A stretch of 41,673 nt of DNA from an uncultured Oscillospiraceae bacterium (lineage in GTDB: Bacteria; Bacillota; Clostridia; Oscillospirales; Oscillospiraceae), in assembly GCA_947587485.1 (NCBI GenBank), contig CANPXZ010000004.1:1-41673 (forward strand). The letters run 5' to 3'. The position numbers were made by a program, and so were the translations under genes. Positions 551 through 35,010 of the stretch are shown here, piece after piece. Every line of letters begins with the position of its first letter. The first letter of the stretch is position 1. The notes below the pieces were generated by a model. The model was not told the origin of the DNA. It saw only the letters and a program-made list of their open reading frames with translations, and searched no databases.

Positions 551-696
551 TAGACGAATAACTATAGCCCAATATGTAGTTTGCTTTTTGCCAATCGAGT
601 ACGACAAATCATCTATTTTGTTATACATGCGCTGTGAGCGTTGCCTCTGAAAGATCAGACGGCCCGATTCTGCGGCTGGGAAGGGACAGGTTAGCG

Positions 697-1683
697 ATGA
701 TATTAACACGGACGCCGTTTCGGGTAAGTTTTGCGGGCGGTGGAAGCGACCTTGCGGAGTATTACGAGCAGCACGGAGGGTGCGTATTGAGCACGAGCAT
801 CAACCGGTACTGCTACATCTCGATCCACCCCTATTTCAACGAGCAGCTGACGCTGCTGAAGTACTCGGAGAACGAGCTGGTGGAGGATCTGTCCCAGATC
901 CGGCACCGGATCTTCAAATGCGTGCTGGGCGAGGCGAAGCTGCACGGAGTAGAGATCGTATCGACGGCGGACGTGCCGGGGGGCACGGGCCTGGGCTCGT
1001 CCAGCACCTTCACGGTGGGGCTTCTGCACGCGGTGACGTGCTACCAGGGGAAGTACTACTCGAAGGAGAAGCTTGCGGCGAAGGCGTGCGAGGTAGAGAT
1101 AGAGAAGCTGGGCAGTCCCATAGGGAAGCAGGATCAGTACGCGGCGGCGTGCGGGGGCCTGAACTACATCCAGTTTCATCGTGATGGAGAGGTATCCGTG
1201 ACGCCGGTGGTGATGAAGGGCAGCGTATACCGGCAGCTGCAGGAGAACCTGGTGATGTACTACACGGGGGAGACGCGATCGGCGAACAGCATATTGAGCG
1301 AGCAGCGTCAGAACACGAAGCAGGAGGACAAGGCGGCGAATCTGGGCGCGATGTGCGCGCTGGCGGAGGAGATGAAGCGGAGTCTGGAGCAGAACGATCT
1401 GACGGGCTTTGGGGAGCTTCTGCACGAGGGCTGGAAGCTGAAGAAGACGCTGGCGCGGGGGATAACGAATCCGGAGATAGACGAGGCGTACGAGACGGCG
1501 ATGAAAAACGGCGCGGTAGGCGGGAAGCTGCTGGGCGCCGGCGGGGGAGGATTTCTGCTGTTTTACTGTCCGAAGGAGAAGCAGGAACAGCTGCGTGTAG
1601 CGCTGCGGATGCGGCCGTTTCCGTTCCGGTTTGAGAAGGACGGCACGACGGTGGCGTACATAGGCGAGAAGTACTGGGATTGA
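697..1683 (+). CDS. hddA: D-glycero-alpha-D-manno-heptose 7-phosphate kinase (GHMP family)
   Basis: This 328-residue GHMP-superfamily kinase should phosphorylate C1 of D-glycero-alpha-D-manno-heptose 7-phosphate, giving the 1,7-bisphosphate on the way to GDP-heptose. The N-terminus MILTRTPFRVSFAGGGSDL is the usual HddA opening. GLGSSSTFTVGLLHA around residue 108-122 is the GHMP ATP loop, and KLLGAGGGGFLLFY near residue 288 is motif 3. The ATG at 697 was chosen because AAGGGACAGG precedes it and family homology starts there, although the frame is open upstream to 634. Neighbours hddC-gmhB and gmhA complete the pathway. A second hddA lies at 27772, which suggests two heptose sets from different sources. 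Confidence 0.87.
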   Translation: MILTRTPFRVSFAGGGSDLAEYYEQHGGCVLSTSINRYCYISIHPYFNEQLTLLKYSENELVEDLSQIRHRIFKCVLGEAKLHGVEIVSTADVPGGTGLGSSSTFTVGLLHAVTCYQGKYYSKEKLAAKACEVEIEKLGSPIGKQDQYAAACGGLNYIQFHRDGEVSVTPVVMKGSVYRQLQENLVMYYTGETRSANSILSEQRQNTKQEDKAANLGAMCALAEEMKRSLEQNDLTGFGELLHEGWKLKKTLARGITNPEIDEAYETAMKNGAVGGKLLGAGGGGFLLFYCPKEKQEQLRVALRMRPFPFRFEKDGTTVAYIGEKYWD

Positions 1684-1698
1684 CGGAGGAGCGAGAAG

Positions 1699-2646
1699 AT
1701 GCGGGTGATGGTAGCGGGCGGCGCCGGTTTTATAGGGAGCAACCTGATAGACGCGCTGCTGGAGGCAGGGCACAGTGTGGTGTGCGTGGACAACTACTTC
1801 ATAGGGACGAAGGCGAACATAGCGCATCTGCACGGCAGGGAGGACTTCACGTTTTACGAGAAGGATCTGTCGGACAGAGAAGCGGTAGAGAGGATATTTG
1901 AGAAAGAGAAGATAGATTTTGTATACCACATGGCGGCGAACTCGGACATACAGGCGAGCGCGGGGGCGCCGGAGGTGGAGTACCGAAACACGTACACGAC
2001 GACCTTCAATATTCTGGAGGGGATGCGGAAAAACGGGGTAAAGGGCCTGTTTTTCTGCTCGACGAGCGCGGTATACGGGGACGCGCAGGGAGCGCATGTG
2101 GATGAGAACTACGCGCCCTTGCGTCCGATATCGTACTACGGCGGCTGCAAGCTTGGATGCGAGGGGATCATCAGCGCGTACACGTACATGAACGACATGC
2201 ACACGATGATGTTCCGTTTCCCGAACGTGATCGGGCCGCGGCTTACCCACGGGGCGGTATTCGATTTCATCCGGAAGCTGAAGGCAGATCCCACGCGGCT
2301 GGAGATCCTGGGAGACGGGCACCAGTGCAAGCCATACCTGTACGTAGGGGATCTGGTGGAGTGCATTATGCGGTACACGAAGGACGTGCCGGCGGGCCTG
2401 ACGGTCTACAACGTGGGCGGGGAGAGCCAGAGCACGGTGACGGGGATCGCGCAGATCGTGTGCCGGGAGATGGGCCTGAAGGACGTGACGTTCACGTACA
2501 CGGGCGGCCGGGGCGGCTGGAAGGGAGACGTGCCGGCGTTTGCGTACAATCTGGACAAGATCCATGCGGCTGGGTGGCATGCCAGCATGACCAGCGACGA
2601 AGCTGTGGCGCAGACGGTGAGGGACGTGATCGGATGCAGGCGGTGA
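1699..2646 (+). CDS. NAD-dependent sugar epimerase/dehydratase (extended SDR)
   Basis: This is an extended short-chain dehydrogenase of 315 residues. It starts MRVMVAGGAGFIGSNLIDAL with the GxxGxxG NAD motif at residues 7-13. It has CSTSAVYGD, which supplies the catalytic Ser/Thr region, and the YxxxK pair in YYGGCK near residues 147-151. The family resembles UDP-glucose 4-epimerases and related nucleotide-sugar enzymes. The real substrate is not readable from sequence. Because it sits between hddA and hddC-gmhB, a GDP- or phospho-heptose is possible, but a UDP-sugar cannot be excluded. It starts 15 bases after hddA and its last 13 bases overlap the next gene. Confidence 0.8.
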   Translation: MRVMVAGGAGFIGSNLIDALLEAGHSVVCVDNYFIGTKANIAHLHGREDFTFYEKDLSDREAVERIFEKEKIDFVYHMAANSDIQASAGAPEVEYRNTYTTTFNILEGMRKNGVKGLFFCSTSAVYGDAQGAHVDENYAPLRPISYYGGCKLGCEGIISAYTYMNDMHTMMFRFPNVIGPRLTHGAVFDFIRKLKADPTRLEILGDGHQCKPYLYVGDLVECIMRYTKDVPAGLTVYNVGGESQSTVTGIAQIVCREMGLKDVTFTYTGGRGGWKGDVPAFAYNLDKIHAAGWHASMTSDEAVAQTVRDVIGCRR

Positions 2647-3950
2647 TCATGGCGGGGGGCAAGGGCACCCGCCTTCGCGCCATTACGAAGGACGAGATCC
2701 CCAAGCCTATGGCGCCGGTATGCAGCAAGCCGATCCTGGCCCGGCAGATCGAGACGCTCCGGGATCAGGGGATCGACGATATCGTGCTGATCGTAGGGTA
2801 TCTGGGAGAGAAGATCCGGGACTGGTTCCAGGACGGCGGGTCCTATGGCGTGCGCATCCGGTATATCGAGGAAGAGGAACCTCTGGGCACGGCGGGGGCG
2901 CTGGCGCTGCTGCCGCCGCTGCTGACGGGGGACAGCTTTTTCCTGGTGTTCGGGGACGTGCTGTTCGATATCGATCTGGGCCGGATGGCGGCGTTCCACC
3001 GGGAGAAGAACGCGGAGGCCACGCTGTTCGTCCATCCCAACAGCCACCCCTTCGACTCGGATCTGGTGGTCTGCGATGATACGGGCCGGGTGACCGGGTT
3101 CGATTCCAAGCATAACGAGCGGAACTACTGGTACGCCAACTGCGTGAACGCTGGGTTCTACCTGATGGACGCGAAGATCTGCGACCGGGTTCCGGAGGCG
3201 AAAAAGACCGACCTGGAAAAAGAGCTCCTGGCTGGCATGATCGCCCAGGGCGCGGCGGTATACGGCTACCGATCCCCGGAGTATATCAAGGACGTGGGCA
3301 CCGTGGAGCGCATCCAGGCCGCGGAGCGGGAGCTGACGGACGGCCTGATCGCGGGCCGCAGTCTTCGGCGCCGGCAGCGGGCGATCTTTCTGGACAGGGA
3401 CGGGACGCTGAACCGGGAGAACGGGCTGGTATACCGGGAGGATCAGTTTGCGCTGGAGGATCGAGCGGCGGAGGCGATCCGGCGCATCAACGGGTCAGGG
3501 TATCTGGCGATCGTGATAACGAACCAGCCGGTGGTGGCCCGGGGCCTGTGCGGGATAGAGGACGTGGAGAATATCCACCGGAAAATGCAGACGCTTTTGG
3601 GCCGGGAGGGGGCGTATCTGGACGGGATAGAGTACTGTCCGCACCACCCGGACAAGGGATACCCGGAGGAAAACCCGGCGTATAAGATCGCGTGCCATTG
3701 CCGCAAGCCGGACACAGGGATGATAGAGCGAGCGGCGGAGCGGTACAACATAGACGTGAGCGCATCGTGGATGGTAGGAGACAGTACGGTGGACGTGCAG
3801 ACGGGAAAGAACGCTGGCACGGGAACAGTGCTGGTACGCACGGGGGTGTCAGGCCGTGACGGGAAGTACGCGGTACGGGCGGACATGGAGTGCGCGGACA
3901 TACTGGAAGCGGTGGAAGAGATACTGAAGAGAGAGGGAGGACAGCGATGA
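2634..3950 (+). CDS. hddC-gmhB: Fused heptose-1-phosphate guanylyltransferase and heptose-1,7-bisphosphate 7-phosphatase
   Basis: One 438-residue protein carries two pathway steps. Residues 1-235 are a nucleotidyltransferase of the RmlA/GalF fold with MAGGKGTRLR at 6-15 and FGDVLFDID near 106-114. This part should join GTP and heptose 1-phosphate. Residues 248-438 are a HAD phosphatase of the GmhB type: FLDRDGT puts the nucleophile at D254 and the acid at D256, VITNQ is motif II, and CPHH with CHC gives the zinc site expected for GmhB. The ATG at 2634 overlaps the preceding gene by 13 bases, and the stop overlaps the gmhA start (ATGA). In most bacteria these are two genes, so the fusion is notable. 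Confidence 0.87.
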   Translation: MQAVIMAGGKGTRLRAITKDEIPKPMAPVCSKPILARQIETLRDQGIDDIVLIVGYLGEKIRDWFQDGGSYGVRIRYIEEEEPLGTAGALALLPPLLTGDSFFLVFGDVLFDIDLGRMAAFHREKNAEATLFVHPNSHPFDSDLVVCDDTGRVTGFDSKHNERNYWYANCVNAGFYLMDAKICDRVPEAKKTDLEKELLAGMIAQGAAVYGYRSPEYIKDVGTVERIQAAERELTDGLIAGRSLRRRQRAIFLDRDGTLNRENGLVYREDQFALEDRAAEAIRRINGSGYLAIVITNQPVVARGLCGIEDVENIHRKMQTLLGREGAYLDGIEYCPHHPDKGYPEENPAYKIACHCRKPDTGMIERAAERYNIDVSASWMVGDSTVDVQTGKNAGTGTVLVRTGVSGRDGKYAVRADMECADILEAVEEILKREGGQR

Positions 3951-4537
3951 CAGACTACAGAGAGCAGATAAAGAGCTATTTGGCGTACGAGCAGGCGACG
4001 CTTGCGGCGCTGGATATAGAGTCGATCAACCAGGCGCTGAACGTCCTGGAGGGGGCATACGAGCGGGGGAGCACCGTGTATATATTCGGAAACGGAGGCA
4101 GCTCCGCGACGGCGTCCCACTACCAGAACGATTTCAACAAGGGCGTGTCGGAGACGCTGGAGAAGAAGTTTGACTTCCGGTGCCTGAACGACAACATCGC
4201 GACGGTGATGGCGGTGGCGAACGACATCGGCTTTGAGGAGGTATTCCGTTACCAGCTGCGGGGTCACCTGAAGGCGGGAGACGTGGTGATGGCGATCTCG
4301 GGAAGCGGAAACTCGGCGAACGTGGTGTTGGCGGCGGAGTACGCGAAGGAGCAGGGGAACGAAGTGATAGGGATCACGGGCTATAACGGAGGGAAGCTGC
4401 GGAAGCTGTGCGACGTATCGCTGCACGCGCCGATCAACAGCATGCAGGTGACGGAGGACATACACATGATCTTCGACCATCTGATGATGAGCGTGATGTG
4501 CAAGAGCTTGGCAGGGATCGATCACTGCAAGGAGTAA
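3947..4537 (+). CDS. gmhA: Sedoheptulose 7-phosphate isomerase (SIS domain)
   Basis: This 196-residue SIS-domain protein should convert sedoheptulose 7-phosphate to D-glycero-D-manno-heptose 7-phosphate, the first step of the heptose route. The phosphate-binding loop FGNGGSSATASHYQNDF lies around residues 46-62, a second SIS loop SGSGNSANV near residue 121, and a late histidine in HMIFDHLMM matches the catalytic end of GmhA. Length fits the family (about 190). The start at 3947 overlaps the preceding TGA as ATGA, so translation is probably coupled. A second, more divergent gmhA lies at 28782. Confidence 0.87.
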   Translation: MTDYREQIKSYLAYEQATLAALDIESINQALNVLEGAYERGSTVYIFGNGGSSATASHYQNDFNKGVSETLEKKFDFRCLNDNIATVMAVANDIGFEEVFRYQLRGHLKAGDVVMAISGSGNSANVVLAAEYAKEQGNEVIGITGYNGGKLRKLCDVSLHAPINSMQVTEDIHMIFDHLMMSVMCKSLAGIDHCKE

Positions 4538-4556: not shown

Positions 4557-6878
4557 ATGGCGCCGAAGATATCGGTGGTACTGCCCATAAACAACAGTGC
4601 CAAGTACCTGACCCGGGCGATAGACAGTATAGAGGAGCAGACGTTCGGGGACTGGGAACTGCTGGCGGTGAACGAAGCGGGGTCGCAGGACGGGTCGGCG
4701 GAGATAGTGAAGATGTACAGCCGCCGGGACGAAAGGATACGGCTGCTGCAAAACGAGCAGCCTCTGGGCCTGGCGGAGTCGCTGAACCGTGGCATACGGG
4801 AGAGCACAGGGGAGTATATAGCGCGGATGGACGCGGACGATATCTCGCACCGGGATCGGTTTGCCAAGCAGTATGCGTATATGCAGGCGCACCCGGAGGT
4901 AGGGGTGTGCGGAACGTACCAGCGGCACTTTGGGGGAAAGAAGGAGTGGACGCACCGGCCGCCGGAGAGCCCGGAGGACATGAAGGCGGCGCTGCTGTTT
5001 CACTGCAACATCTGCCACTCGACGGTGATGCTGCGGCGGAGCGTATTTGTGGCCAACGGATTATATTACGACGGCAGATACAAGGCGGAGGATTTCGAGC
5101 TGTGGAGCCGGGCGGTGGGCGTGACGGCGTTCGCCACGATCCCCGAGGTGCTGGAGGAGAAAGGAAAGAGCAGCCGGGATAAGAGCTGGAACGACGGACA
5201 GATCACAGCGCGCATGCTGCGGACGATGCTGGGCATCGAGCTTGCAGAAGAGCAAACAGCGTGTTTTCAGCGTCCAGAACTAAATAAAGAAGAACGTAAA
5301 CAGTTCAAATCGCTCCTTTGGGAGGTATATAACAGGAACGAAGAGCGGCAGGTATTTGCGCGCGAGAGCCTGGTGAACATGCTGTGCACGGAGTGGCGGT
5401 ATGTGACGGGGCGTGGAGAGCGTCTGTGGAGCGGCGAGCGGTATGTGCAGACGATAGAGCAGGCGCTGGACGAGAAGGCGCCTGTGCCCGAAGAGCGCAA
5501 GAGCGTGCCGGAGAGAGTGAAGGCGGGCGTGGCGGCGCGGCTGCGCCGGAGCCTGGACATGGAGGGCCAGCGGAAGCGGATCGTGCAGGACGTGGAGAAG
5601 CGGCTGGGGAAGCTGGAGACGAAGCTGACGCGGCAGGCGGAGCGGCGGACAGGGGAACTGTCGGCACAGCTCCGGGAGCAGGCCCAGGCACTGGCACAGG
5701 TGCAGGCGCAGGCGGACAAGCCGGCGCCGGAGCCGCCCCAATGGGAGAGAGTATATCTTCCATACCGCGCGGGAGAGAAGCTGCGCGCGGGCGTACTGGT
5801 GACGTCGGCGGCGGACTGGCCTACGCTGGAGAGCGTATGGCGCGCGCTGGCGCAGGATGGCCGGACGGAGGCGGCGCTGTACGTCTACGGCAGCCAGGCG
5901 CGGGAGTATATGGAGAGCATAGGGGAGAGGTATGCGCCGGCGGAGCAGTATACGCTGGCGGAGGCCAGGCCCCATGTACTCATACGGCGGATCAGCAAGG
6001 CGAAGCTGCCGGTATATCTGCAGAGCGAGAAGCTGAGTCGGCTGGGGATACGGCAGTGCTGCATACCGGAGCAGTTTCCGGTATGCGCGCAGAGCGAGCA
6101 GAGCGCGGCGGAGCGCCAGGCTTGGGGCGTATTCACCAGCTCGGGGCGCGTACAGTATGACCACATCTGCCAGAGCGAGGCGGGATGGGAGAACGAGCGC
6201 GGCGCGGGAGCGCCGATCCTGGACGGCCTGCGCCGGAGGGAGTCGTACCCGCTGGAAGAAAAGGTGCGCCATCGTATAGGCGCCCGGAAGCTGGTGGTGA
6301 TGTATATCCACGGGCCGGAAGCGGACGAGGCCAGCCGGCTGCCCCAGGCGGACATAGACGAGTATACGGCGTTTATAACGGGCGCTGTGGCCCGGTGGAA
6401 GAGTTATTTCTTCCTGGTGCTGCTGGGAGAAGACTTTGCGCAGCGGTGCAGCGCGTACGGCCTGGAGAAGAACGGCGCCGCGCTGCAAGAGGCGATAGAG
6501 GCGGCGGAGAACGCGGCGCTGTATACAGGCGCGGATCACCGGCGGGCGCTGTATGGCGCGGCGTATGTGATAGCGGACAGGTCGGACATGCTGCTGGAGA
6601 GCGCGGCGGCGGGCATACCGGCGCTTTATATGCACAGCTTTTACTGCCGGGATCGGCTGCTGCCGGGGATAGAGCCGGTGTATGAGAGTCTGTACCAGGG
6701 CACGTGCCGGTATGACATGGACATGTACCTGGACATGGTGGGAGAGAAGAGCGGCGACTACAAGGCGGAGGAACGGCGGCGCGCGGCGCGGGCGAGTCTT
6801 CCGGCGGCGGACGGGGAGAACGGCCGGCGCGTGTTGGAGTCGGTGCTGGAGGCCATGGCGGAGGAGGCGGCGAGGTAG
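4557..6878 (+). CDS. Two-domain glycosyltransferase: GT2 plus coiled coil plus TagF/GT-B-like domain
   Basis: This 773-residue protein opens with a GT2 domain (MAPKISVVLPINNSAKYL, with RMDADD near residue 90 as the DxD metal site), which runs to about residue 230. Residues about 340-395 are rich in Q, E, L and R and should form a coiled coil. The rest, from about 400, resembles the sugar-donor half of a GT-B enzyme. ADRSDMLLESAAAGIPALYMHSF recalls the acceptor or donor loop of CDP-glycerol glycerophosphotransferases. The substrates are unknown. No membrane helix is seen, so it probably acts on the cytoplasmic face. An AT-richer patch at about 5245-5340 interrupts the GC-rich style at the end of the GT2 domain and may mark an old junction. 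Confidence 0.72.
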   Translation: MAPKISVVLPINNSAKYLTRAIDSIEEQTFGDWELLAVNEAGSQDGSAEIVKMYSRRDERIRLLQNEQPLGLAESLNRGIRESTGEYIARMDADDISHRDRFAKQYAYMQAHPEVGVCGTYQRHFGGKKEWTHRPPESPEDMKAALLFHCNICHSTVMLRRSVFVANGLYYDGRYKAEDFELWSRAVGVTAFATIPEVLEEKGKSSRDKSWNDGQITARMLRTMLGIELAEEQTACFQRPELNKEERKQFKSLLWEVYNRNEERQVFARESLVNMLCTEWRYVTGRGERLWSGERYVQTIEQALDEKAPVPEERKSVPERVKAGVAARLRRSLDMEGQRKRIVQDVEKRLGKLETKLTRQAERRTGELSAQLREQAQALAQVQAQADKPAPEPPQWERVYLPYRAGEKLRAGVLVTSAADWPTLESVWRALAQDGRTEAALYVYGSQAREYMESIGERYAPAEQYTLAEARPHVLIRRISKAKLPVYLQSEKLSRLGIRQCCIPEQFPVCAQSEQSAAERQAWGVFTSSGRVQYDHICQSEAGWENERGAGAPILDGLRRRESYPLEEKVRHRIGARKLVVMYIHGPEADEASRLPQADIDEYTAFITGAVARWKSYFFLVLLGEDFAQRCSAYGLEKNGAALQEAIEAAENAALYTGADHRRALYGAAYVIADRSDMLLESAAAGIPALYMHSFYCRDRLLPGIEPVYESLYQGTCRYDMDMYLDMVGEKSGDYKAEERRRAARASLPAADGENGRRVLESVLEAMAEEAAR

Positions 6879-6879
6879 T

Positions 6880-7881
6880 ATGCCAGAGATATCCGTGGTG
6901 ATGCCGGTATACAACGGCGCGCAGTATCTGCCGGAGGCGATAGAGAGCGTACTGGATCAGAGCTATGGGGACTTTGAGTATCTCATCGTGTGCGAGCACG
7001 GGAGCGACGAGGCGAGCATGGCGGTCGTGGAGGGGTACGCGGCGAAGGACGAGCGGATACGCCTGATACGAAACGAGCGGCGGCTGGGCATAGCGGCGTC
7101 GCTGAACGTGGGCCTGGCCGCGGCACAGGGCCGATACATTGCCCGGATGGACGGGGACGATGTGTCCGGCCGGCGGCGGTTCGAGGTACAGCGGCAGTTT
7201 CTGGAGAGCTATCCGGAGATAGGCGTGTGCGGGATACACCCCCGGGTGCTGTACCCGGCGGACAAGCCGGGGGATTTTCTGCTCGATTACGGAACCGATC
7301 CGGAGCAGATGGAGAGCGACCTGCTGTTCTTCATCCCCATGCGGCACCCGAGTGTGATGTTCCGTGGAGAGCTGACAAGGACGTGCGCCTATGACGAGAC
7401 GCTGGCGGGGGGAGAGGAATACAGCTTCTTCTACCGGATGAGTTTGCAGACGAAGCTGGGCAATATCCCTGATCCGACGCTGTTTTCCTACCGGCGCACG
7501 GGGGAGAACGCCTCCCGGGTATATCTGGCGCGGGACACCTTTATCCGGCGGGAGACGATGCGGGAGATCTTTCGTCAGCAGCTGGGGATGGAGTTTGAAA
7601 ACCGCCAGATGGACATACTAAATTTTTTGGGGAACACGGCGTACGACGATCTGAAGAAGGAGCAGTATCCGGCGGTGGTAGAGCAGCTGGAGCGACTGCT
7701 GGAGCAGATAGAGGAGCAGAACGAACGGAAGGGCGTATACCGGCCGGCATGTCTGCGCAAGACGCTGGAGCACCGATGGTTTCGGGAGAAGCGGCGGCTG
7801 CGTCTGATGATGAAGGGGCAGCTGACGGAGGCGGTGGAGAGGGCGTTGGCGGAGAGCCGGTATGCCAGCGTGTGGTTCTGA
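6880..7881 (+). CDS. Family 2 glycosyltransferase
   Basis: This is a 333-residue GT2 enzyme. MPEISVVMPVYNGAQYLPEA is the standard first strand and loop, RMDGDDVSGRRR near residue 90 carries the DxD, and GGEEYSFFYRM holds the acidic catalytic-base region. It transfers an unidentified sugar in the cytoplasm. The ATG at 6880 follows the previous stop almost directly. The frame is open further upstream but only inside the preceding gene. The GT2 domains at 4557 and 8569 share its R-L-x-x-N-E and LGIAASLN blocks, so these three probably descend from one ancestor. Confidence 0.82.
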   Translation: MPEISVVMPVYNGAQYLPEAIESVLDQSYGDFEYLIVCEHGSDEASMAVVEGYAAKDERIRLIRNERRLGIAASLNVGLAAAQGRYIARMDGDDVSGRRRFEVQRQFLESYPEIGVCGIHPRVLYPADKPGDFLLDYGTDPEQMESDLLFFIPMRHPSVMFRGELTRTCAYDETLAGGEEYSFFYRMSLQTKLGNIPDPTLFSYRRTGENASRVYLARDTFIRRETMREIFRQQLGMEFENRQMDILNFLGNTAYDDLKKEQYPAVVEQLERLLEQIEEQNERKGVYRPACLRKTLEHRWFREKRRLRLMMKGQLTEAVERALAESRYASVWF

Positions 7882-7894
7882 AGGAGAGGAAGAG

Positions 7895-8530
7895 ATGGAC
7901 AAGCAGGTGAGACGGCAGATCCGGGTGAAGAACTGGCGGCTATGGGCGCTGGCGGGGATAGCGATCCTGACGTTGGTATACACGTTCCTGCGGCAGGCGC
8001 CCATAGGGGAGAGGACGATAACCCTGACGGCGCGTGGAGAGCAGGAGAGCGTGGCGGACGGGAGCGAGATCTGGCTCCGGCGGGTGGAGATAGACGGAAA
8101 GGAATACGCGCCGGAGGAAGTGTTCACCGGCAAGTGGATCGAGGAAAAGGGATACTACGTCTGGCGTACATACGACCGGGTGGAGGGAATGACGGACAGC
8201 CTGACGGCCACATTCCCGGGGGACGCGGACGTGGATATGTACTTTGAGTCGAACCGGTGGCGGGGGATCCTGCGGGTGCAGGACGGGTGTATTCTGCCGC
8301 GGCTTTACAGGGTGAACTGCTACCGGGACACGGGCGCGGGGGACGAGCTTATCAGCTACAAGCAGACCAGAATGGCTCCCGGCATCCTCCGGGCCGCCAG
8401 ACTGCTGCTGTTCTACGCGACGGCCTGGATTCTCATTACGGAGATACGCCAGCGGGTTTTGAATAGAAGACGCATGCTTGAGCAAAAGACGGTGTCAAAA
8501 AAGCCGGTTCCAAGCGATCCGGACGTCTGA
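7895..8530 (+). CDS. Two-TM protein with extracytoplasmic module (shared module, copy A)
   Basis: This protein of 211 residues has one membrane helix at about 14-32, a roughly 130-residue outside segment and a second helix at about 165-184. A basic tail follows. I do not recognise a named family. The outside segment has the same landmarks as segments of the proteins at 12831, 14468 and 16236: ITLTARGE, an EIW strand, DGK, GKW, YVWR, a proline-led strand and a final D/Y turn. It is closest to the GT-C protein at 16236. The start at 7895 follows GGAGAGG. It sits between glycosyltransferases, so a role in export or decoration of the glycan is likely but unproved. Confidence 0.65.
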   Translation: MDKQVRRQIRVKNWRLWALAGIAILTLVYTFLRQAPIGERTITLTARGEQESVADGSEIWLRRVEIDGKEYAPEEVFTGKWIEEKGYYVWRTYDRVEGMTDSLTATFPGDADVDMYFESNRWRGILRVQDGCILPRLYRVNCYRDTGAGDELISYKQTRMAPGILRAARLLLFYATAWILITEIRQRVLNRRRMLEQKTVSKKPVPSDPDV

Positions 8531-8568: not shown

Positions 8569-11500
8569 ATGGGAAAAAAGAATGCGATTATCCTTGCTGA
8601 TACGAGGCCGGCGCTGGTAGGAACGGTACTGCTGCAGCTGGATAAGACAAATAAGGGCCTTTTTGACGAGGCGATCATATATTATTCTGATCCAATCGAT
8701 GAAAAAGACCAGGCGCTGATGTGCCAGATCATGCCCTGCCGCTTTATTGAGTATGAACCGGATCTGCCGGATTTTCTCTTTGATAAGCCCCGCTTCAAAC
8801 GGTTTTCCCCCTTGATGTTCTGCCGGTATGAGATGCCGCGGTATTTAGAAGAATTTGAGACTGTCACATGGCTTGACACAGACATTCTGATCCAGGGTGA
8901 CTTGAGCCAGATAATCGAACAGGCAAAGCAATGTGGCGCGGCAATTGTCCGGGAGGACGACATCAATAAGACTGCCAAGCGACCGGATACAATGCGAACC
9001 TGCTTCACAAGGGATGTCGTTGGATATAAAACGGACGAATATCTCTACGTTTCAGCTCTGATCGTTCTCACAAAGAAAAGCGGACTGACTGAACAATATA
9101 CCAATTGGTGTTACAGGAAGACAACGCAGTGGTCGGATATTTTGAATTTACCTGACCAAGGCGTTATTAATGCTGCCATACAGGCATTTGATATCAAAGT
9201 GTCGCCTGTATGCGGAAGTATTTTTGGCTGCTATCCATTCCGGGGAAGAGATTGTTCCAAGGCGAAGATTATCCATGCGTGGGGGTCAAATAAGTTTTGG
9301 AATGATTGGTATCTGCATCTGAACTATCCCCAGTGGCAAGACTATTATGAACAGTGGATTGCGATGGGAGGATGTAGTTTCCCGGTTCAGCAGGAGCCGA
9401 AGATTTCCATCGTTATTCCATTGTATAAACCAGATCTGGAACAGCTGGAAAAATGTCTGGACAGCCTGATGGCGCAGAACCGGAATGATTGGGAGAGATA
9501 TTCGGATTTTGAGATCATCCTTGTGGCAGAGCCGGGAGAGAACGACGCGCTGCAGGCTCTGCTGGATACATATCAGGACAAGGGTATCCGGCTCCTGGTC
9601 AACGAGCGGCGGCTGGGGATAGCGGCGAGTCTGAACCGTGGAATGAAGCAGGCTAAAGGCCGCTATATTGCCAGGGTGGACGCGGACGACGTCTGTGCCA
9701 GACCGCGGATGTGTATGCAAGAAGAGTATCTGGACAGTCATCCGGAGATCATGCTCTGCACCAGCGATTACGAATACTTCGGTGATATGAACGAGGGACG
9801 AGTGATCTTTGAAGGAGAATTGAGCAGAGCTTGGTCAGTACTCACTTGCCCGTTTGATCATCCGACCATTATGTTCCGCAAGGATTTCTTCCTGGATAAC
9901 GATCTGTTCTATGATGAACAGCGTGGGTTCGTGGAAGACTGGGAACTGTGGTGCCGTGCGTTCAAAAAGGGCATGACGGTGGGGTGTATCCACAAGGTGC
10001 TCTACTCACACCGGTGGGTAAACGCGGCCAGTGCCGGACAGACAAACCAGACCATCATCATGATGCGGGAGATGATTCAGAAAAACTTCTCCGAGCTGGG
10101 TGTGCAGATCCCTACGGAGGATCTGCGCATCATGGGCCCGTGGAACGGGAAACTGCTTGATCCTGCCGATATTGAAAAACTGAAGGGCTATCTTGACCAG
10201 GCGCTCAAGCAGAACCAGACCCTGGGTCTGTATGACCAAGAGAGTTTGGAGTATGTATTCTCGCTGCGCCTGCGGGAGGCCGAGACTGGAAAGCTTCCCG
10301 GCCTTGTAAAGAAGGCCAAGAAGAAGAAAAAAGCTCCCCCAAAGACAAAAAAGCTGCCGGAAAAGCCCAAAACCCTCAAGGGGAGAGTCAAGCAGCTGCT
10401 CAAACCTCTGTATCAGCCGTTCAGAAAACGGTATGAGAATCGGCTTATCCGTCTGGAAAAGAAGGCCGACAGCATCAGAGAACATAGCTATGTGCTGGAA
10501 GGGCATTTGTGGAGCTGCATCAACAAATTGGATGTAGAGCATCAGATGATCAACTCGAATATGGAATTGATCACAGCGCTGCTCTACGAACAACTGCAGC
10601 TTCGCAGGCGCATGGATCGGCAGGAGAAGCAGTTTGAGCAGGCGATCGAGAACTGGACAAGGGAACGCTACCAGCGGACAGAGCAGTTGGTCAGAGACAA
10701 GGTATGGAACTTGGGGCAGCAGCTGGACAAGCAGGTTGAGGATTGGACCTGGGAACGGTATCAGCGAACGGAGAATCTCATTGAGAATAAACTCTGGTCG
10801 CTGCAGCAGGAAACGGAAAGGCTTGTTAAAGACTGGACATGGGAGCGCTACCGCCGGACAGAGCAGCTGTCGGAAAAAGTGGAAGGCGAGCTCAACGACA
10901 CACTGGGCAGATATACAAGAGAGATCCATCGGCATGTAGATTTTACATACCGGGATCTGATGGTAGCGCTGGAACGTGCGTCGGCCTTTCTGCCGGCAGC
11001 GGATATCACCCTGGAGACCGACTATCCGATAGCTTATGAAAGCCTGGATCATCTTTATCCCCATGGGACGATACAAGATAACACACGCTACCCGCGGTTT
11101 ATTGAGAAGTGCGAAACACTGTTGAGACCGAAGGGGAAGCTCTCGTTCTTGGATCTTGGATGTTCTGGCGGCGGCATGGTACTGGAGGCGGCGCTGCGGG
11201 GCCATGTCTCGATCGGTCTTGAGGGGAGCGACGCTTCTCTGAAAGAGCAAAGGGCAGAATGGCGGCTGCTGGGCGACCGGCTGATGACCTGCGATATCGC
11301 AAAACCCTTCAAACTCCGGGGCAGCGACGGGCAGAACTACAAGTTTGACGTGATCACCGCCTGGGAGGTGCTGGAGCATATCCAGGAAAATGACATTGGC
11401 CAGCTCCTGGAGAACATCAAAGAGCATCTTTCCGAAGATGGATTCTTTGTTGGCTCCATTGCCAATTGGGACGATATCGACCCGGAGACGGGTGTGAACT

Positions 11501-11700
11501 GGCATGTCACGGTGCACCCCTACGAATGGTGGAAGGAGCGCTTTGAGGCGGCGGGGATGCAGGTCTGCAGCGAGATGTTCGACCCCATTGATCTGGCCCG
11601 GGGCGGGTACAATCCTCCCCACTGCTATGAGGCGCCCTATCCGGAGATAGATCCGAACCGGTCGATCCATATTGCCGCGAGAAAGGCGGAGAGCGTATGA
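8569..11700 (+). CDS. GT8 - GT2 - repeat/coiled coil - methyltransferase fusion
   Basis: This 1043-residue protein has four parts. Residues 1-265 are a GT8-like glycosyltransferase with the DxD in WLDTDILIQGDL. Residues about 277-500 are a GT2 domain (PKISIVIPLYKPDL, RVDADD near 370). A very lysine-rich linker (577-607) leads to a helical region with three copies of a W-T-x-E-R-Y-Q-R-T-E motif at residues 696, 726 and 756, an exact 30-residue period. Residues about 855-1040 are a class I SAM methyltransferase (FLDLGCSGGG, then AWEVLEHI). It probably builds and methylates a short oligosaccharide. The stop overlaps the next gene's ATG (ATGA), and the next protein carries the same repeat. Confidence 0.8.
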   Translation: MGKKNAIILADTRPALVGTVLLQLDKTNKGLFDEAIIYYSDPIDEKDQALMCQIMPCRFIEYEPDLPDFLFDKPRFKRFSPLMFCRYEMPRYLEEFETVTWLDTDILIQGDLSQIIEQAKQCGAAIVREDDINKTAKRPDTMRTCFTRDVVGYKTDEYLYVSALIVLTKKSGLTEQYTNWCYRKTTQWSDILNLPDQGVINAAIQAFDIKVSPVCGSIFGCYPFRGRDCSKAKIIHAWGSNKFWNDWYLHLNYPQWQDYYEQWIAMGGCSFPVQQEPKISIVIPLYKPDLEQLEKCLDSLMAQNRNDWERYSDFEIILVAEPGENDALQALLDTYQDKGIRLLVNERRLGIAASLNRGMKQAKGRYIARVDADDVCARPRMCMQEEYLDSHPEIMLCTSDYEYFGDMNEGRVIFEGELSRAWSVLTCPFDHPTIMFRKDFFLDNDLFYDEQRGFVEDWELWCRAFKKGMTVGCIHKVLYSHRWVNAASAGQTNQTIIMMREMIQKNFSELGVQIPTEDLRIMGPWNGKLLDPADIEKLKGYLDQALKQNQTLGLYDQESLEYVFSLRLREAETGKLPGLVKKAKKKKKAPPKTKKLPEKPKTLKGRVKQLLKPLYQPFRKRYENRLIRLEKKADSIREHSYVLEGHLWSCINKLDVEHQMINSNMELITALLYEQLQLRRRMDRQEKQFEQAIENWTRERYQRTEQLVRDKVWNLGQQLDKQVEDWTWERYQRTENLIENKLWSLQQETERLVKDWTWERYRRTEQLSEKVEGELNDTLGRYTREIHRHVDFTYRDLMVALERASAFLPAADITLETDYPIAYESLDHLYPHGTIQDNTRYPRFIEKCETLLRPKGKLSFLDLGCSGGGMVLEAALRGHVSIGLEGSDASLKEQRAEWRLLGDRLMTCDIAKPFKLRGSDGQNYKFDVITAWEVLEHIQENDIGQLLENIKEHLSEDGFFVGSIANWDDIDPETGVNWHVTVHPYEWWKERFEAAGMQVCSEMFDPIDLARGGYNPPHCYEAPYPEIDPNRSIHIAARKAESV

Positions 11701-12795
11701 GTGGGAATACGGATATGCGGAAAAATCAGCCCCGGAGCGATCGCGGGGGGGGGTAAACACGAAAGTTTCTTCCATCGGTTGGGAAAGCGCCTTTTCGCCG
11801 GCTTCGCAGACGAGCTCCGGGAGGAGATAAGGCAGGTTCTCCAGCGTGAGACGCAGGAATTGGAACGCAGCGTCGAGGCTTGGACCTGGGAGCGGTATCA
11901 GCGAACGGAGAAACTGGTGGAGAACTGGACCTGGGAGCGATACCAGCAAACGGAAAAGCTTCTGAAGGACACGATAGACCGCCGCCTGCAAAAGCTCATG
12001 CCGCTGCCGTCTCTGCGGACGCTGGATGTGCATATTGCGGAGCACTGCAATTTGAACTGTCAGTGCTGCGACAATTTCTCCCCCATCGCCGAGGAACAAT
12101 ACACAGACTATGACAGCCTGGCGCGGGATTTTGCCAGACTGCGTGAGCTGTCCCACGGGCAGGTGGGCACCATCTATCTGGACGGCGGCGAACCGCTGCT
12201 GCATCCGAGGATCGCCGATTTTGTCTCTCTTACGAGAGAGCATTTTGAAGAATCGGATATCTATGTGGTGACCAATGGGATACTGCTTGCTCAGATGCCG
12301 GAAGCGTTCTGGGAAAAATGCGCCTCCAACCATGCCGGAGTCCTGATCACGAAATATCCGATCCATCTGGATATGGAGACCATCGAGGCGAAAGCGGCAG
12401 AGCACGGTGTCGTCTGGCGGTTTTACGATGAAAGCGCGGATTATAAGGAAAAAACCACCACATTCATGCCTTTGGATATGCATGGCGGCCACGAAAGCTA
12501 CCAGAATTTTGTGAACTGCTATCACGCGAATTACTGCATCTACCTCTGGGAGGGGCGGATCTATACCTGTTCAGTAGCCGCGAGCATTCGGCATTTCAAC
12601 CGGTTCTTCCACGAGGATCTGCCGGACGTGCCGGAAAATTCCATCAGCATCTATGAAGCGAAGGATATGGACGAGATCCTGCGGTTTTTATGCCGGCCCA
12701 TCCCGCTGTGTGAATACTGCGATATCCCCGGCCGAACCTTTGATATCCCCTGGGGGATATCCAAACAGGAAAAGAGCGAGTGGGCGCATGTATGA
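11701..12795 (+). CDS. Radical SAM protein, N-terminus behind a poly-G switch
   Basis: The frame encodes a radical SAM enzyme with the cluster motif C116-x3-C120-x2-C123 (AEHCNLNCQCCD) and later cysteines (NCYHANYC, YTCSVA, LCEYCDIPG) that could hold an auxiliary cluster. The substrate is unknown. Two W-T-W-E-R-Y-Q-x-T-E repeats lie at residues 61 and 76. The natural start should be the ATG at 11697, which overlaps the preceding stop, but with nine G at 11745-11753 that frame stops at once (TAA 11754-11756). Only with 8 or 11 G does it join this frame. As written, the protein needs the GTG at 11701, a weaker start in the wrong phase for the ATGA coupling. Confidence 0.75.
   Translation: MGIRICGKISPGAIAGGGKHESFFHRLGKRLFAGFADELREEIRQVLQRETQELERSVEAWTWERYQRTEKLVENWTWERYQQTEKLLKDTIDRRLQKLMPLPSLRTLDVHIAEHCNLNCQCCDNFSPIAEEQYTDYDSLARDFARLRELSHGQVGTIYLDGGEPLLHPRIADFVSLTREHFEESDIYVVTNGILLAQMPEAFWEKCASNHAGVLITKYPIHLDMETIEAKAAEHGVVWRFYDESADYKEKTTTFMPLDMHGGHESYQNFVNCYHANYCIYLWEGRIYTCSVAASIRHFNRFFHEDLPDVPENSISIYEAKDMDEILRFLCRPIPLCEYCDIPGRTFDIPWGISKQEKSEWAHV
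11745..11753 (+). repeat. Poly-G tract (G9) in the 5' end of the radical SAM gene
   Basis: Nine G follow codon 16 of the frame that starts at the ATG at 11697. With G9 the frame ends GGG-TAA. With G8 it reads RGGGKHESFFHRLG and runs through the whole radical SAM gene. This is the layout of a slipped-strand translational switch. Confidence 0.8.
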
Positions 12796-12830
12796 AAAGG
12801 CGGTGCCGGGGGCTGCCAAAGGAGGTATTC

Positions 12831-13385
12831 ATGAATACATCGGATAGAGCATGGGGGAAGGCTGCGCTGAAGCGCATGCTGCCCAGTTTGGTAACAGCGC
12901 TGGCTGCGGCGGCCGTCTTGTTCGCTGCTTTTTCCGTATGCCTGAGGACGAATCTTGCGGAGCCGACGTATATGGCGATCTCTTCCCTGGCAGAGGATCA
13001 GCCTGTCACCTTCCGGGGCGCGACAGTAGATGGAAAATGGCTGAATCCTTCCGATATGCTGGTGTCGGCAGGGAGCTGGGTCGAGGATCCAGAGCAGAGG
13101 GTTTATACCTCCTCAGACGAGACTCCGCTGCGGCTGGAGCTGCCGCCGGGACAGGAGCGCACCCTGGCCTTCAATTCCGGCCCGGACGAGGGCGCGGTGC
13201 TGGTAGAGTTTGACGAGGATCAGCTGGAATTTGACCTGTACAGCGACGCCGTCGCTGAGCTGGGGTCGAATTACCAGGTGCCCGCCGCGCTTCCCCACGG
13301 GCTGCCGTTTTATATTTTCTTCCTAATAGCCGCGCTGCTGTTCGGCATGTTCGCGCTCATCCCCGACAGAAGTGCGGGGGGGTAA
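12831..13385 (+). CDS. Extracytoplasmic module with two TMs (copy B), front half of a split acyltransferase
   Basis: This is a 184-residue product: membrane helix at about 17-37, outside module at about 40-155, second helix at about 157-177, then SAGG and a stop right after a G7 tract. The outside part is clearly paralogous to residues 45-150 of the protein at 14468 (V-T-F-R-G-A-T-V versus V-T-Y-R-G-A-M-V, NSGPDEGAVLVE versus NYGPDEGVAVVE). That protein continues into an acyltransferase-3 domain, so this gene should too. One extra G at 13376-13382 joins it in frame to the acyltransferase at 13445, giving about 528 residues. The ATG at 12831 follows GGAGG. Confidence 0.75.
   Translation: MNTSDRAWGKAALKRMLPSLVTALAAAAVLFAAFSVCLRTNLAEPTYMAISSLAEDQPVTFRGATVDGKWLNPSDMLVSAGSWVEDPEQRVYTSSDETPLRLELPPGQERTLAFNSGPDEGAVLVEFDEDQLEFDLYSDAVAELGSNYQVPAALPHGLPFYIFFLIAALLFGMFALIPDRSAGG
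13376..13382 (+). repeat. Poly-G tract (G7) splitting module B from its acyltransferase domain
   Basis: Seven G are followed by TAA in the upstream frame. With eight G the frame reads SAGGVRLPEERDVSGDLLRG and then runs into the acyltransferase. The break lies just before the catalytic R-x10-H motif. Confidence 0.8.
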
Positions 13386-14467: not shown

Positions 14468-16090
14468 ATGAAGCGTGTTAGGAAGAAAGGTGATCGTCGG
14501 ACGCGGATCGTGCTGAACAACAGGATTGTCGCGGCTTTTGCAGTGGTCATTCTATGTCTGTCCTGCGTGCTGGCGGCGGTTGTTATCCGAAGACCTATCC
14601 GAGTACTGGTCACGGTGCAGGAAGGTTCTGGTTCGGTGACCTACCGAGGAGCGATGGTGAGCGACAGTTGGTGCAATCCGCCAGCCGGATTATCTCCAGA
14701 TGGCTCCTGGATTTTTGATTCCAAGACGTCTACATATACCGCCGCAAGTTATCTGCCTTTAGAGATCGAATTGCCGGCAGGAGAGGAATGTGCTCTTGTT
14801 TTCAATTACGGTCCGGACGAGGGCGTTGCGGTCGTAGAGGCGCGGGGCGAGCGGTTTGAATTTAATCTGTACAACAATACAGTTGTGGAGTATGGAAAAT
14901 CATTCCAAATTCCGGGCGTGGAGCCGATGGATCGTTCGTATTACGCTCTTCCTTTGGTCATCTTGGCGGTTCTTATCGCTCTTATGGGATATGTCTATGC
15001 AGGAAACGACATGCAGAGGAAGACCCGCAGCCGGGGGATTGAAATATACAGGTTTTTGTTTTCCCTGGTGATCATGCTGCACCATATCGGTTGGCAGTTC
15101 AGTTTTAATTTGTTCAGCGCCGGATATCTGGCGGTAGACATGTTTTTTATTGTCAGCGGATATTTCCTTGCGGCGCATTACGAGCGGAAGACCGTGGAGG
15201 GTAGGGGGGTATTAGGGCCGGAAGAAAGTGCCCTGCAATACGCGGCCGGGCGGTGGAAACGGATGTTTTTCCACCACAGCTGGGCGTTCCTTGTGGCGGC
15301 TTTTTCTTCGGTCGTGCTGCTGAAAAACGCCGGTTGGAAGCAGATCCTGTTTGATAACTGGCTGGAGTTTCTCATGTTGGAAGAGACCGGCCTTGGAAAT
15401 GAAGCGGTTATAAATGGCGTGGGTTGGTATTGCAGTGCATTGTTCCTGGCTTCTTTCCTGGTGTATTATTCCCTGTGCAGGAACAAAAAAGCACATGTGT
15501 GCGTGATTATGCCGATCACCGCTGTGCTGGCATTTTCCTACTTTTATAGATATGGGGATCTGAACCGATACCTACAAAATCCGCTGATGATCTGCGATGG
15601 GGCGATCCGGGGATTTGTAGAATTGTCGATGGGCTGTGCATGCTATTATGCAGTCGTGAGGATAAAAGGAGGCCAGTACAGATTTGTGCAGCAGCGTTTG
15701 GAACCGTGGATGTACGGTCTGACGGAGACATTGTGCTTTGGTGCGCTGATGTACATCATGTGGAAACCTGGCGGGTATAAGCCGGGATGGTTTGTGTCCC
15801 AGGACTTTATGGCCATACCAATAATGGTACTGCTTGTGATTGTAGTGTTGTCGGAGAAAAGTATCCTTCATAAGCTTTGGGATAATAGTCTGTCCGCTTT
15901 CCTCGGAAAGCTCAGTTTTTCTATCTTCTTAAATCATACAGTGATTCTTGGCCTGCTCACAAAATTCATGATCGGCAGACCGGTGCCGATGATCCTGTCG
16001 ATCTATCTTGGCACAACGATCGGATATTCTGTTTTGACGATGCTGGTGATCGACGCGCTGGAGAATGTCGTTTTTAGGAAGAGAATCTGA
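14468..16090 (+). CDS. Extracytoplasmic module (copy C) fused to acyltransferase-3 domain
   Basis: This 540-residue membrane protein is the intact version of the architecture split at 12831/13445. Helix at about 19-41, outside module at about 45-150, helix at about 159-177, then an acyltransferase-3 domain from about 188 with R195-x10-H206 (YRFLFSLVIMLHH) and FFIVSGYFLAAHYERK. It likely transfers an acyl group, such as acetyl, onto the surface glycan, with the module held outside near the acceptor. That role for the module is inference. The start ATG at 14468 follows TTGGAGAA. The stop is followed by a 145-base gap. Confidence 0.8.
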   Translation: MKRVRKKGDRRTRIVLNNRIVAAFAVVILCLSCVLAAVVIRRPIRVLVTVQEGSGSVTYRGAMVSDSWCNPPAGLSPDGSWIFDSKTSTYTAASYLPLEIELPAGEECALVFNYGPDEGVAVVEARGERFEFNLYNNTVVEYGKSFQIPGVEPMDRSYYALPLVILAVLIALMGYVYAGNDMQRKTRSRGIEIYRFLFSLVIMLHHIGWQFSFNLFSAGYLAVDMFFIVSGYFLAAHYERKTVEGRGVLGPEESALQYAAGRWKRMFFHHSWAFLVAAFSSVVLLKNAGWKQILFDNWLEFLMLEETGLGNEAVINGVGWYCSALFLASFLVYYSLCRNKKAHVCVIMPITAVLAFSYFYRYGDLNRYLQNPLMICDGAIRGFVELSMGCACYYAVVRIKGGQYRFVQQRLEPWMYGLTETLCFGALMYIMWKPGGYKPGWFVSQDFMAIPIMVLLVIVVLSEKSILHKLWDNSLSAFLGKLSFSIFLNHTVILGLLTKFMIGRPVPMILSIYLGTTIGYSVLTMLVIDALENVVFRKRI

Positions 16091-27771: not shown

Positions 27772-28785
27772 ATGATCATTACCCAGACGCCCTTCCGGGT
27801 CTCGTTCTTCGGTGGAGGAACAGACTTTCCGGCATTTTATGAAAAATATGGCGGACAGGTTTTGTCTACCAGCATCAATAAGTACTGCTATATCACGGTG
27901 CGTCATCTCCCGCCGTTTTTTGAGTATTCAAACAGCGTAATGTATTCTCAGATAGAGCGAGTAAAAAATATTGCTGATATTGAACATCCGGCGGTAAGGG
28001 AAGCTATGAAATTCTTGGATATGCATGAACTATCCATTATTTATGATGCAGATCTTCCGGCTCGGACAGGGTTGGGAACAAGCAGTTCTTTTGCTGTTGG
28101 CCTGTTGCTGGCTTTTCATTCTTTGAAAGGAAAGTATGCAGACAAAAAGCGTCTGGCGGATGAGGCAATTTATTTGGAACGCGCACTGTGTAATGAGAGC
28201 GGTGGCCTTCAGGATCAGATTGCAGTTGCATACGGGGGACTTAATAAGATCATCTTTAATTCCAGCGGCTATAGAGTGCAGCCGGTGGTGGTAAATGATG
28301 AAAATAAGAAAGCGTTGGACGAAAATCTGATGCTGTTCTTTACGGGCATTTCCAGGTATTCATTCTCTATTCAAGCAGAGCATGAGAGAAATTTGGAGGT
28401 AAAGAACCGGCAGCTTCTCCAAATGAAGGATCTGGTAGATGAGGCGGAAATGGCGCTGGTGGAGGGAAGAGTAGATGATTTTGGCAGCCTGTTAGAGCAG
28501 GAATGGCAGTTGAAGCGGGAGATTAATGGCAGTGTAACGAATCCTGCGATAGATAGCTATTATGCCCGGGCCAGGAAGGCAGGCGCTCTAGGAGGAAAAC
28601 TTCTTGGGGCAGGCGGTGGAGGTTTTCTTCTGCTTTATGCGAAGAAAGAGAAGCAAGATTCGGTTCGTGAAGCTCTTTCTGAATTGCTGGAGATTCCGTT
28701 CGGATTTGAGACCGGAGGCGCTAAAGTCTTGTACTATATGCCGGAGAGCTATGTCCTGCCTTGGGAGAGGGAGGCAAAAGGATGA
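27772..28785 (+). CDS. hddA: Second heptose 7-phosphate kinase (GHMP family)
   Basis: This 337-residue GHMP kinase has the same opening as the gene at 697 (MIITQTPFRVSFFGGGTDF), GLGTSSSFAVGLLLAF as the ATP loop and KLLGAGGGGFLLLY as motif 3. It is too diverged from the first copy to be a recent duplicate and its base composition is more AT-rich. It has a good GAGAGGAAA ribosome region and overlaps the next gene as ATGA. No second guanylyltransferase is seen here, so the fused hddC-gmhB at 2634 may serve both sets. Confidence 0.87.
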   Translation: MIITQTPFRVSFFGGGTDFPAFYEKYGGQVLSTSINKYCYITVRHLPPFFEYSNSVMYSQIERVKNIADIEHPAVREAMKFLDMHELSIIYDADLPARTGLGTSSSFAVGLLLAFHSLKGKYADKKRLADEAIYLERALCNESGGLQDQIAVAYGGLNKIIFNSSGYRVQPVVVNDENKKALDENLMLFFTGISRYSFSIQAEHERNLEVKNRQLLQMKDLVDEAEMALVEGRVDDFGSLLEQEWQLKREINGSVTNPAIDSYYARARKAGALGGKLLGAGGGGFLLLYAKKEKQDSVREALSELLEIPFGFETGGAKVLYYMPESYVLPWEREAKG

Positions 28786-29420
28786 AGCAAAGTACTGAAT
28801 ATATTGTCCAAAAATATATCGAGAGGCACAGCTTCGTAGAGGAACTGAAGGAAAAGCTATGCGAAGCCGTGGAGATTTTAGAGACCTCCTATCAGAAGGG
28901 CGGCAAGCTGCTAATTTGTGGAAACGGCGGAAGCTGTGCGGATGCTAGTCATATTGTTGGTGAACTGATGAAACCGTTTCGGATCTCGCGTCCGCTGGAT
29001 CGGAGAACGCGGTCAGCTTTGTTGAAACAAGGTGTGCCTTGTCTGGCAGAGATGTTAAAGGGGGCATTGCCGGCAGTCGACCTGGGGGCACAGGCGGCGC
29101 TCATCACAGCACAGCTCAATGATGTGGGAGCAGACTTTATCTATGCGCAGCAGGTCATCGGATATGGCTGCCCGGGTGATGTACTTTTAGGCATCAGCAC
29201 TTCGGGGAACTCAAAGAACATATTGTATGCTGGCGTTGCAGCTAATGCTAAGGGAATGAAGACCATTGGACTGACTGGAAAGTCCGGGGGTAAAATGGGG
29301 AAGTTTTTTGATGTGCTCCTCTGTGCGCAGGCTGAAGACACAGAAGATATTCAGGATATGCATAGCGTTATCTATCACCTGCTGTGTGCGGCAGTAGAAA
29401 ATGAGTTTTGGGGAGAATAA
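28782..29420 (+). CDS. gmhA: Second sedoheptulose 7-phosphate isomerase (SIS domain)
   Basis: This is a 212-residue SIS protein with CGNGGSCADASHIVGEL (phosphate loop), ISTSGNSKNI, TGKSGGKMG and a terminal DIQDMHSVIYHLL with the catalytic-type histidine. It has an insertion (about residues 68-105, including KPFRISRPLDRRTRS) that the first gmhA lacks. It is coupled to hddA by a four-base overlap. Together they form a second heptose supply set beside the ColD-like and 4,6-dehydratase-like genes. Confidence 0.85.
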   Translation: MKQSTEYIVQKYIERHSFVEELKEKLCEAVEILETSYQKGGKLLICGNGGSCADASHIVGELMKPFRISRPLDRRTRSALLKQGVPCLAEMLKGALPAVDLGAQAALITAQLNDVGADFIYAQQVIGYGCPGDVLLGISTSGNSKNILYAGVAANAKGMKTIGLTGKSGGKMGKFFDVLLCAQAEDTEDIQDMHSVIYHLLCAAVENEFWGE

Positions 29421-34457: not shown

Positions 34458-35005
34458 CAGAGCTGGCCCTTCCAGGGGTGAAGATCATAGAGCCCACCTA
34501 TTTTGAGGACTACCGGGGCTATTACTGCGAAACCTATTCCAAGCGGACGCTGGCGGAATACGGGATCGACTGCGAGTTTGTCCAGGACAACCATTTCCTG
34601 TGCCTGGAGCGGGGCACGATCCGGGGCATCCACTTTCAGAATGATCCCCATGCTCAGGCAAAGCTGATCCGGTGCACCCGGGGCAGTCTGCTGGATATTG
34701 CGGTGGATCTGCGGAAGGGCTCGCCCACCTATTTGCAGTGGTGCTCTGTGATTTTGAGCGCAGAGAACCGAAAGCAGCTGTTCATTCCCCGGGGATTCGG
34801 GCATGTGTGTATGTCGCTGGTGGACAACACGGAGGGGCAGTATAAGGTGGACAACTTGTACGCGCCGGCGTATGACAGGGCGATAGCGTGGAACGATTCG
34901 CAGATCGCCATAGCCTGGCCGGACATCAAGGCGGTGGTGTCCCCAAAGGACGTGAAGGCGCCCACGCTGGCGGAGAGCGACGTGAACTTCCGGTACGCGG
35001 GGTGA
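34448..35005 (+). CDS. RmlC-like dTDP-4-keto sugar epimerase (first copy)
   Basis: This 185-residue cupin of the RmlC family has RGIHFQNDPHAQAKLI with the catalytic-type histidine, DIAVDLRKGSPTY and FIPRGFGHVCMSL. Family members epimerise C3 and/or C5 of 4-keto-6-deoxy sugars. A second copy at 36058 shares most of these blocks. Each is followed by an SDR, so the two pairs probably arose by duplication of a cassette. The start overlaps the previous gene by 10 bases and follows AGGAGAGA. Confidence 0.83.
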   Translation: MRVTELALPGVKIIEPTYFEDYRGYYCETYSKRTLAEYGIDCEFVQDNHFLCLERGTIRGIHFQNDPHAQAKLIRCTRGSLLDIAVDLRKGSPTYLQWCSVILSAENRKQLFIPRGFGHVCMSLVDNTEGQYKVDNLYAPAYDRAIAWNDSQIAIAWPDIKAVVSPKDVKAPTLAESDVNFRYAG

Positions 35006-35010
35006 GCGGG

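Follow-up and report, generated by a model that had tools for sequence, protein, structure and literature searches.

A WTWERY repeat unit in the linkers of surface-glycan enzymes, a candidate co-assembly module

To our knowledge, how the separate cytoplasmic enzymes of surface-glycan synthesis are held together is mostly unknown beyond a few Gram-negative O-antigen systems. In WbdD-type proteins, a coiled coil separates polymerising from terminating modules (PMC11231755). A coil of a different geometry is found in the VASP tetramerization domain, where 15-residue repeats build a right-handed coiled coil (Kuhnel et al., 2004, as cited in PMC4721544) through which, as PMC4721544 summarises it, Ena/VASP paralogues form mixed tetramers. 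Here we describe a locus that resembles both in part. The window that we analysed, 41,673 nucleotides in length, is a single contig (41.7 kb, incomplete at both ends) of the 2.5-Mb, 74%-complete assembly of an uncultured Oscillospiraceae bacterium, and the genes at 4557..6878, 8569..11700 and 11701..12795 lie on its plus strand.

Positions 8569..11700 encode a 1043-aa protein (P0001) with the Pfam architecture GT8 (PF01501, residues 70-247), GT2 (PF00535, residues 280-411), coiled-coil linker and SAM methyltransferase (PF13489, residues 852-985). Like WbdD, WbbB and K. pneumoniae O7 ORF6 (PMC11231755, PMC3482155), it combines methyltransferase and GT modules, set apart by a long coiled coil, within a glycan assembly locus; PF13489 follows a predicted 165-residue helix, modelled with low confidence, and a terminator role for it is putative. 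P0001 differs from the WbdD-type proteins in its reversed order (GT8-GT2-coil-methyltransferase), in that no kinase domain was found in it, and in its conserved WTWERY unit, which in the window is common to other enzymes of the locus. An ABC exporter (Wzm/Wzt) was not found on the window contig. In a Lachnospiraceae relative (G471), however, an ABC-2 permease and an ATPase stand immediately upstream of the motif gene, as beside WbdD-type genes. The likeness to VASP lies in the 15-residue repeat and 15/4 hydrophobic pattern of the WTWERY linkers, compared at the level of sequence pattern; these linkers have no PDB sequence match, and their carriers are unrelated enzymes rather than paralogues.

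The next gene (P0002, 11701..12795) encodes a 364-aa twitch-type radical SAM protein (PF04055, Foldseek) with an N-terminal helical linker. Its called start is a GTG, and the resulting N-terminus is unusual. An ATG at 11697 that overlaps the upstream stop and is preceded by AGGCGGAG opens a frame that reaches the radical SAM frame out of register, and the two join across a nine-G run (11745-11753) that may be phase-variable or may reflect a length error in the assembly. Another nine-G run (35973-35981) is located close to the end of an epimerase gene (34888-35991). A further protein of the window (4557..6878), classified by Pfam and periodicity as GT2 - coiled coil - glycerophosphotransferase-like, has no WTWERY unit and is the homologue of a motif-bearing protein of the same type in a genome of the same genus (G018).

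The repeat unit and the geometry of its linkers

A preliminary description of this DNA had reported a repeated W-T-W-E-R-Y-Q-R-T-E motif in the two adjacent enzymes. We confirmed that W-T-x-E-R-Y occurs three times in P0001 with an exact 30-residue period (W codons at 10654, 10744 and 10834; residues 696, 726 and 756) and twice in P0002 with a 15-residue period (W codons at 11881 and 11926; residues 61 and 76). The ten-residue motif is real, with the qualification that the first copy reads WTRERY and the last runs on as YQQTE. The P0001 units are M1 (QAIENWTRERYQRTEQLVRDKV, 10639..10704), M2 (KQVEDWTWERYQRTENLIENK, 10729..10791) and M3 (RLVKDWTWERYRRTEQLSEKV, 10819..10881), and its translation has degenerate 15-mers separating M1 from M2 (DKVWNLGQQLDKQVE, 10696..10740) and M2 from M3 (NKLWSLQQETERLVK, 10786..10830). 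In P0002, S1 (RSVEAWTWERYQRTEKLVEN, 11866..11925) is followed 15 residues downstream by S2 (KLVENWTWERYQQTEKLLKDTI, 11911..11976). Given the degenerate 15-mers between the 30-spaced copies, the basic period is 15 residues in both proteins; a spacing of 15 was also seen in G471 and in another carrier genome, G451.

A comparison of 22 units from 10 proteins showed no variation at W, T and R and hardly any at Y, E and W, while the spacers diverge. The core is preceded by D-K-x-[VI]-E-R and followed by R-x-E-x-x-L, giving the consensus LDKx[VI]ERWTWERYxR, which is placed in enzyme linkers. No further WTxERY copies were found elsewhere in the 2.5-Mb host assembly (a reversed-pattern control gave 0), and the recurrence is far above chance: a profile of the unit picks up no coherent matches beyond the relatives described below.

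Hydrophobic residues recur every 3.74 residues per turn in P0001, 3.78 in P0002 and 3.72 in G451, with 0 of 300 shuffles showing a signal as strong. The period of 3.7-3.8 in both window linkers thus fits 15/4 (3.75), that of a right-handed coiled coil, and not the heptad value of 3.5. A 15-residue repeat combined with a period near 3.75 was found in these three linkers; periods of 3.86-3.90 were obtained in G450 and G018, and no significant peak in G454 or G453. The motif-free coil of 4557..6878 is heptad-like, at 3.56-3.58 in its best-scoring part. AlphaFold2 models residues 641-805 of P0001 (10489..10983) as one continuous helix and P0002 as having helices at 36-69 and 78-99, with pLDDT of ~30-60 for both linker helices, and no usable geometry was obtained from these models. 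Taken together, the 3.74-3.78 periodicity and the low-confidence helices support a helical repeat shared by the two enzymes, as had been proposed, and from them we infer a coiled-coil fold for the WTWERY linkers.

Occurrence in other genomes

Scanning the pattern GARNNNTGGACNTGGGARMGNTAY against 84,980 species returned 26 stretches, compared with ~30 expected by chance according to our estimate, which assumes uniform base composition. Seven of these are in-frame units inside the linkers of glycan-type enzymes: they come from Acetatifactor (in two proteins), Lachnospiraceae RGIG970, two Veillonellaceae, one Eggerthellaceae and G018. The remaining 19, lone matches in solute-binding proteins, GT4 C-termini, outer-membrane proteins and non-coding frames, were discarded, as were five single matches in viral contigs, all in unrelated contexts; plasmid records contained no match. 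Profile searches over ~1,400 genomes added hardly any further carriers. With a frequency of approximately 1 in several hundred genomes, the WTWERY unit is very rare and patchy. Neither the repeat itself nor a profile of it had a relevant match among PDB sequences, no Pfam model covers the linker, and WTWERY was not mentioned in the literature searched.

The carriers outside the window are methyltransferases and CDP-glycerol-phosphotransferase-like proteins from Oscillospiraceae, Lachnospiraceae, Veillonellaceae and the one Eggerthellaceae genome. The glycan locus of G018 holds two of them, a methyltransferase of 460 aa that carries three units and the 815-aa GT2-glycerophosphotransferase-like protein, which carries one, and Acetatifactor has two carrier proteins ~16 kb apart, with three and one units. 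Three loci, including that of the window, therefore each hold two different carrier enzymes. A single motif protein was found in each of the Veillonellaceae loci, where it is a different methyltransferase with two units, and in that of G471, which has WTWDRY and WTWKRY 15 residues apart. In RGIG970 and the Eggerthellaceae genome the carrier is at a contig end, where a second carrier is possible, and the Eggerthellaceae locus is a putative glycan locus. Searched for beyond the window, the motif was found in other glycan loci, and its repeated, linker-embedded form was seen only on glycan-type enzymes rather than broadly in unrelated proteins. The two Veillonellaceae methyltransferases (L070:3187-3819 and L071:2783-3670) come from closely related genomes, and in one of them ~85 internal residues that span the SAM-binding region are absent.

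Both the phosphotransferase-like domain (L075, L078) and the radical SAM domain (L080, L082, L083, L095) have catalytic homologues that lack the linker, and the unit is therefore an add-on module.

Possible functions of the unit

The reading that we favor, at a little less than even confidence, is that the unit is a portable coiled-coil association module for the docking or co-assembly of surface-glycan enzymes. It would be a block of ~15 residues of right-handed-type (15/4) coiled coil, grafted into the linkers or N-termini of cytoplasmic enzymes in certain surface-glycan loci, and its task would most likely be to gather the enzymes of one assembly line. The non-heptad coils of P0001 and P0002, predicted to have the same geometry, may pack together or on a common partner and thereby bring chain extension, methylation and radical-SAM oxidation to one lipid-linked chain, and the number and spacing of units may also set the distance between catalytic heads. 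Sharing of the unit by two enzymes of one locus recurs in G018 and Acetatifactor despite the rarity of the motif, as would be expected if such enzymes dock with one another or with some common partner, and the fixed core sequence likewise speaks for docking. In addition, the flanks of the P0001 units score a mean BLOSUM of 42.8 against the P0002 units versus 22.9 against those of the orthologous G018 methyltransferase, the catalytic domain of which is 60% identical to that of P0001; this closer likeness to P0002 than to the orthologue is as expected if the coils of partners change together. Cross-docking of P0001 with P0002 is thus plausible from their sequences, and mixed oligomers and an assembly role are what we would infer for the unit. 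Against docking, the units of the paired carriers in G018 and Acetatifactor are no more alike than units of other loci, the Veillonellaceae and G471 loci show a single carrier each, AlphaFold confidence in the helices is low, and the likeness seen in the window could reflect one old module transfer between the genes. Nor is one continuous 15/4 coil compatible with the spacings of 23, 39 and 43 or with the prolines that separate some units.

In a bolder form, which we regard as possible with distinctly lower confidence, WTWERY would be an exchangeable right-handed coiled-coil code, such that any tagged enzyme joins the same mixed complex where the surface glycan grows; the tag would have spread across loci and phyla, with different catalytic heads. 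The docking domains of polyketide synthases are an analogue of such an exchangeable tag on different catalytic heads. If association is indeed the function, a short tag would mark which enzymes of a locus form one complex, making complexes predictable from sequence, and coiled-coil-organised glycan assembly would extend to gut bacteria of the Bacillota and Actinomycetota with a non-heptad geometry. On our best reading, the unit would be filed under glycan assembly organised by coiled coils, here of a non-heptad kind.

Alternatively, and as a strong rival that we hold somewhat less likely, each enzyme may form its own homo-oligomeric coil, which as in WbdD would act as a spacer or ruler that keeps membrane or GT modules a set distance away from the catalytic head, the units being alike through shared module origin and not through cross-docking. 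In P0001 a long coil does run from the GT modules to the methyltransferase, a layout known from the coil-ruler polymerase/terminator proteins (PMC11231755), the G018 orthologue keeps three units at spacings of 43 and 39 in place of 30 and 30, and the motif gene of G471 adjoins an exporter pair. However, a ruler demands length, not one fixed WTWERY across phyla and unrelated enzymes, and the pairing of rare motif genes within one locus is left unexplained. A spacer and docking or co-assembly are compatible and do not exclude each other.

It is less likely than the spacer, and rather improbable, that the unit docks the enzymes on a common third partner, such as an exporter, a scaffold or the membrane surface, or is itself a Trp/Arg-rich amphipathic membrane helix. 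Several lineages have units of ~23 residues bounded by prolines, and some carriers begin with a common amphipathic helix, RLIxAVxxAVREEM, which was found in G450, G451 and G453 and in the G018 methyltransferase (P 0.0015), is marginal in P0002 (P 0.07) and is absent in P0001. Yet a strict WTWERY with an invariant Arg exceeds what affinity for a membrane would require, charged residues make up 33-46% of the linkers, with repeat regions near-neutral in net charge in both P0001 and P0002, and a common third protein was not found. RLIxAVxxAVREEM lies N-terminal to the WTWERY units in several families (L068:6425-7969, L069:2-592, L072:7047-7864 and L010:11130-12512).

The units might also be functionless, left behind neutrally by duplication in tandem and between genes, a reading that synonymous codons make very improbable. 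For residues common to two copies, we compared codon agreement with random synonymous choice, and found it no higher than random in eight of ten window pairs and in 14 of 16 pairs outside the window. Codons agreed at 9/13 positions between M2 (10744) and S1 (11881; P 0.05) and at 7/9 between M1 and M3 (P 0.03), both weak signals once ten tests are allowed for. Only in the G018 methyltransferase do tandem copies, with 16/18 and 12/13 codons in agreement, look like recent duplications; they and the M2/S1 pair are what favors a leftover, whereas in nearly all other pairs the residues are kept and the synonymous sites are saturated. As residues are fixed while synonymous codons are random, selection, and not recent copying, keeps the protein sequence. 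Near-identity of the DNA between some copies, as stated in the preliminary description, is not general and applies to one pair only, and the suggestion that the copies provide sites for recombination is weak given the saturation almost everywhere. On the same codon comparison we rejected recent recombination as the cause of the likeness in most pairs. The WTWERY unit is real, selected, modular and rarely seen.

The radical SAM protein and the sugar cassette

Although Trp-rich repeats adjoin a radical SAM gene, we rejected as scarcely credible that this enzyme takes the Trp/Tyr-rich repeat as its peptide substrate (in a cyclophane- or cross-link-type maturation), since no such radical SAM homologue was found in G018, G451, G454 or G471, an Eggerthellaceae radical SAM homologue lacks the motif, and the fold of P0002 is nearest to SpeY, a small-molecule dehydrogenase.

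The best Foldseek match of P0002 was SpeY (7wzx, E 1.3e-10), which is also the best sequence match of its catalytic domain. P0002 has an invariant CxxxCxxC cluster motif (C116, C120 and C123) and, consistent with a twitch-type enzyme, further invariant cysteines toward the C-terminus (C273, C290, C337 and C340; alignment A3). It differs from SpeY and BtrN in its N-terminal WTWERY linker, its surface-glycan locus and an identity of only ~20%. With a twitch radical SAM dehydrogenase as its nearest fold, P0002 likely oxidises a sugar hydroxyl, and P0001, judged from its Pfam families, would transfer one or two sugars as well as a methyl group.

A cassette of GHMP kinase, epimerase and nucleotidyltransferase-phosphatase fusion, partly read from sequence, recurs near the motif in several cases; in G018, RGIG970 and the window it also includes a SIS isomerase. 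We take this cassette to match the Hdd/Gmh pathway, which presumably points to a heptose nucleotide. The window contains two sets of GHMP kinase and SIS isomerase genes (634-4537 and 27772-29420), suggesting two heptose-type sugars. An epimerase pair is tandemly repeated in 34448-37532, each copy consisting of a dTDP-sugar epimerase (34448, 36055) and an NAD-dependent epimerase/dehydratase (34888, 36621). An uncharacterised domain (xTFRGAxVxxxWxNPxD...GSWxxD...FNxGPDEG) is common to the protein at 12780-13385, where it is unfused and an acyltransferase gene of its own follows, and to the start of that at 14468-16090, where it is fused to an acyltransferase; 7862-8530 possibly encodes a more distant relative.
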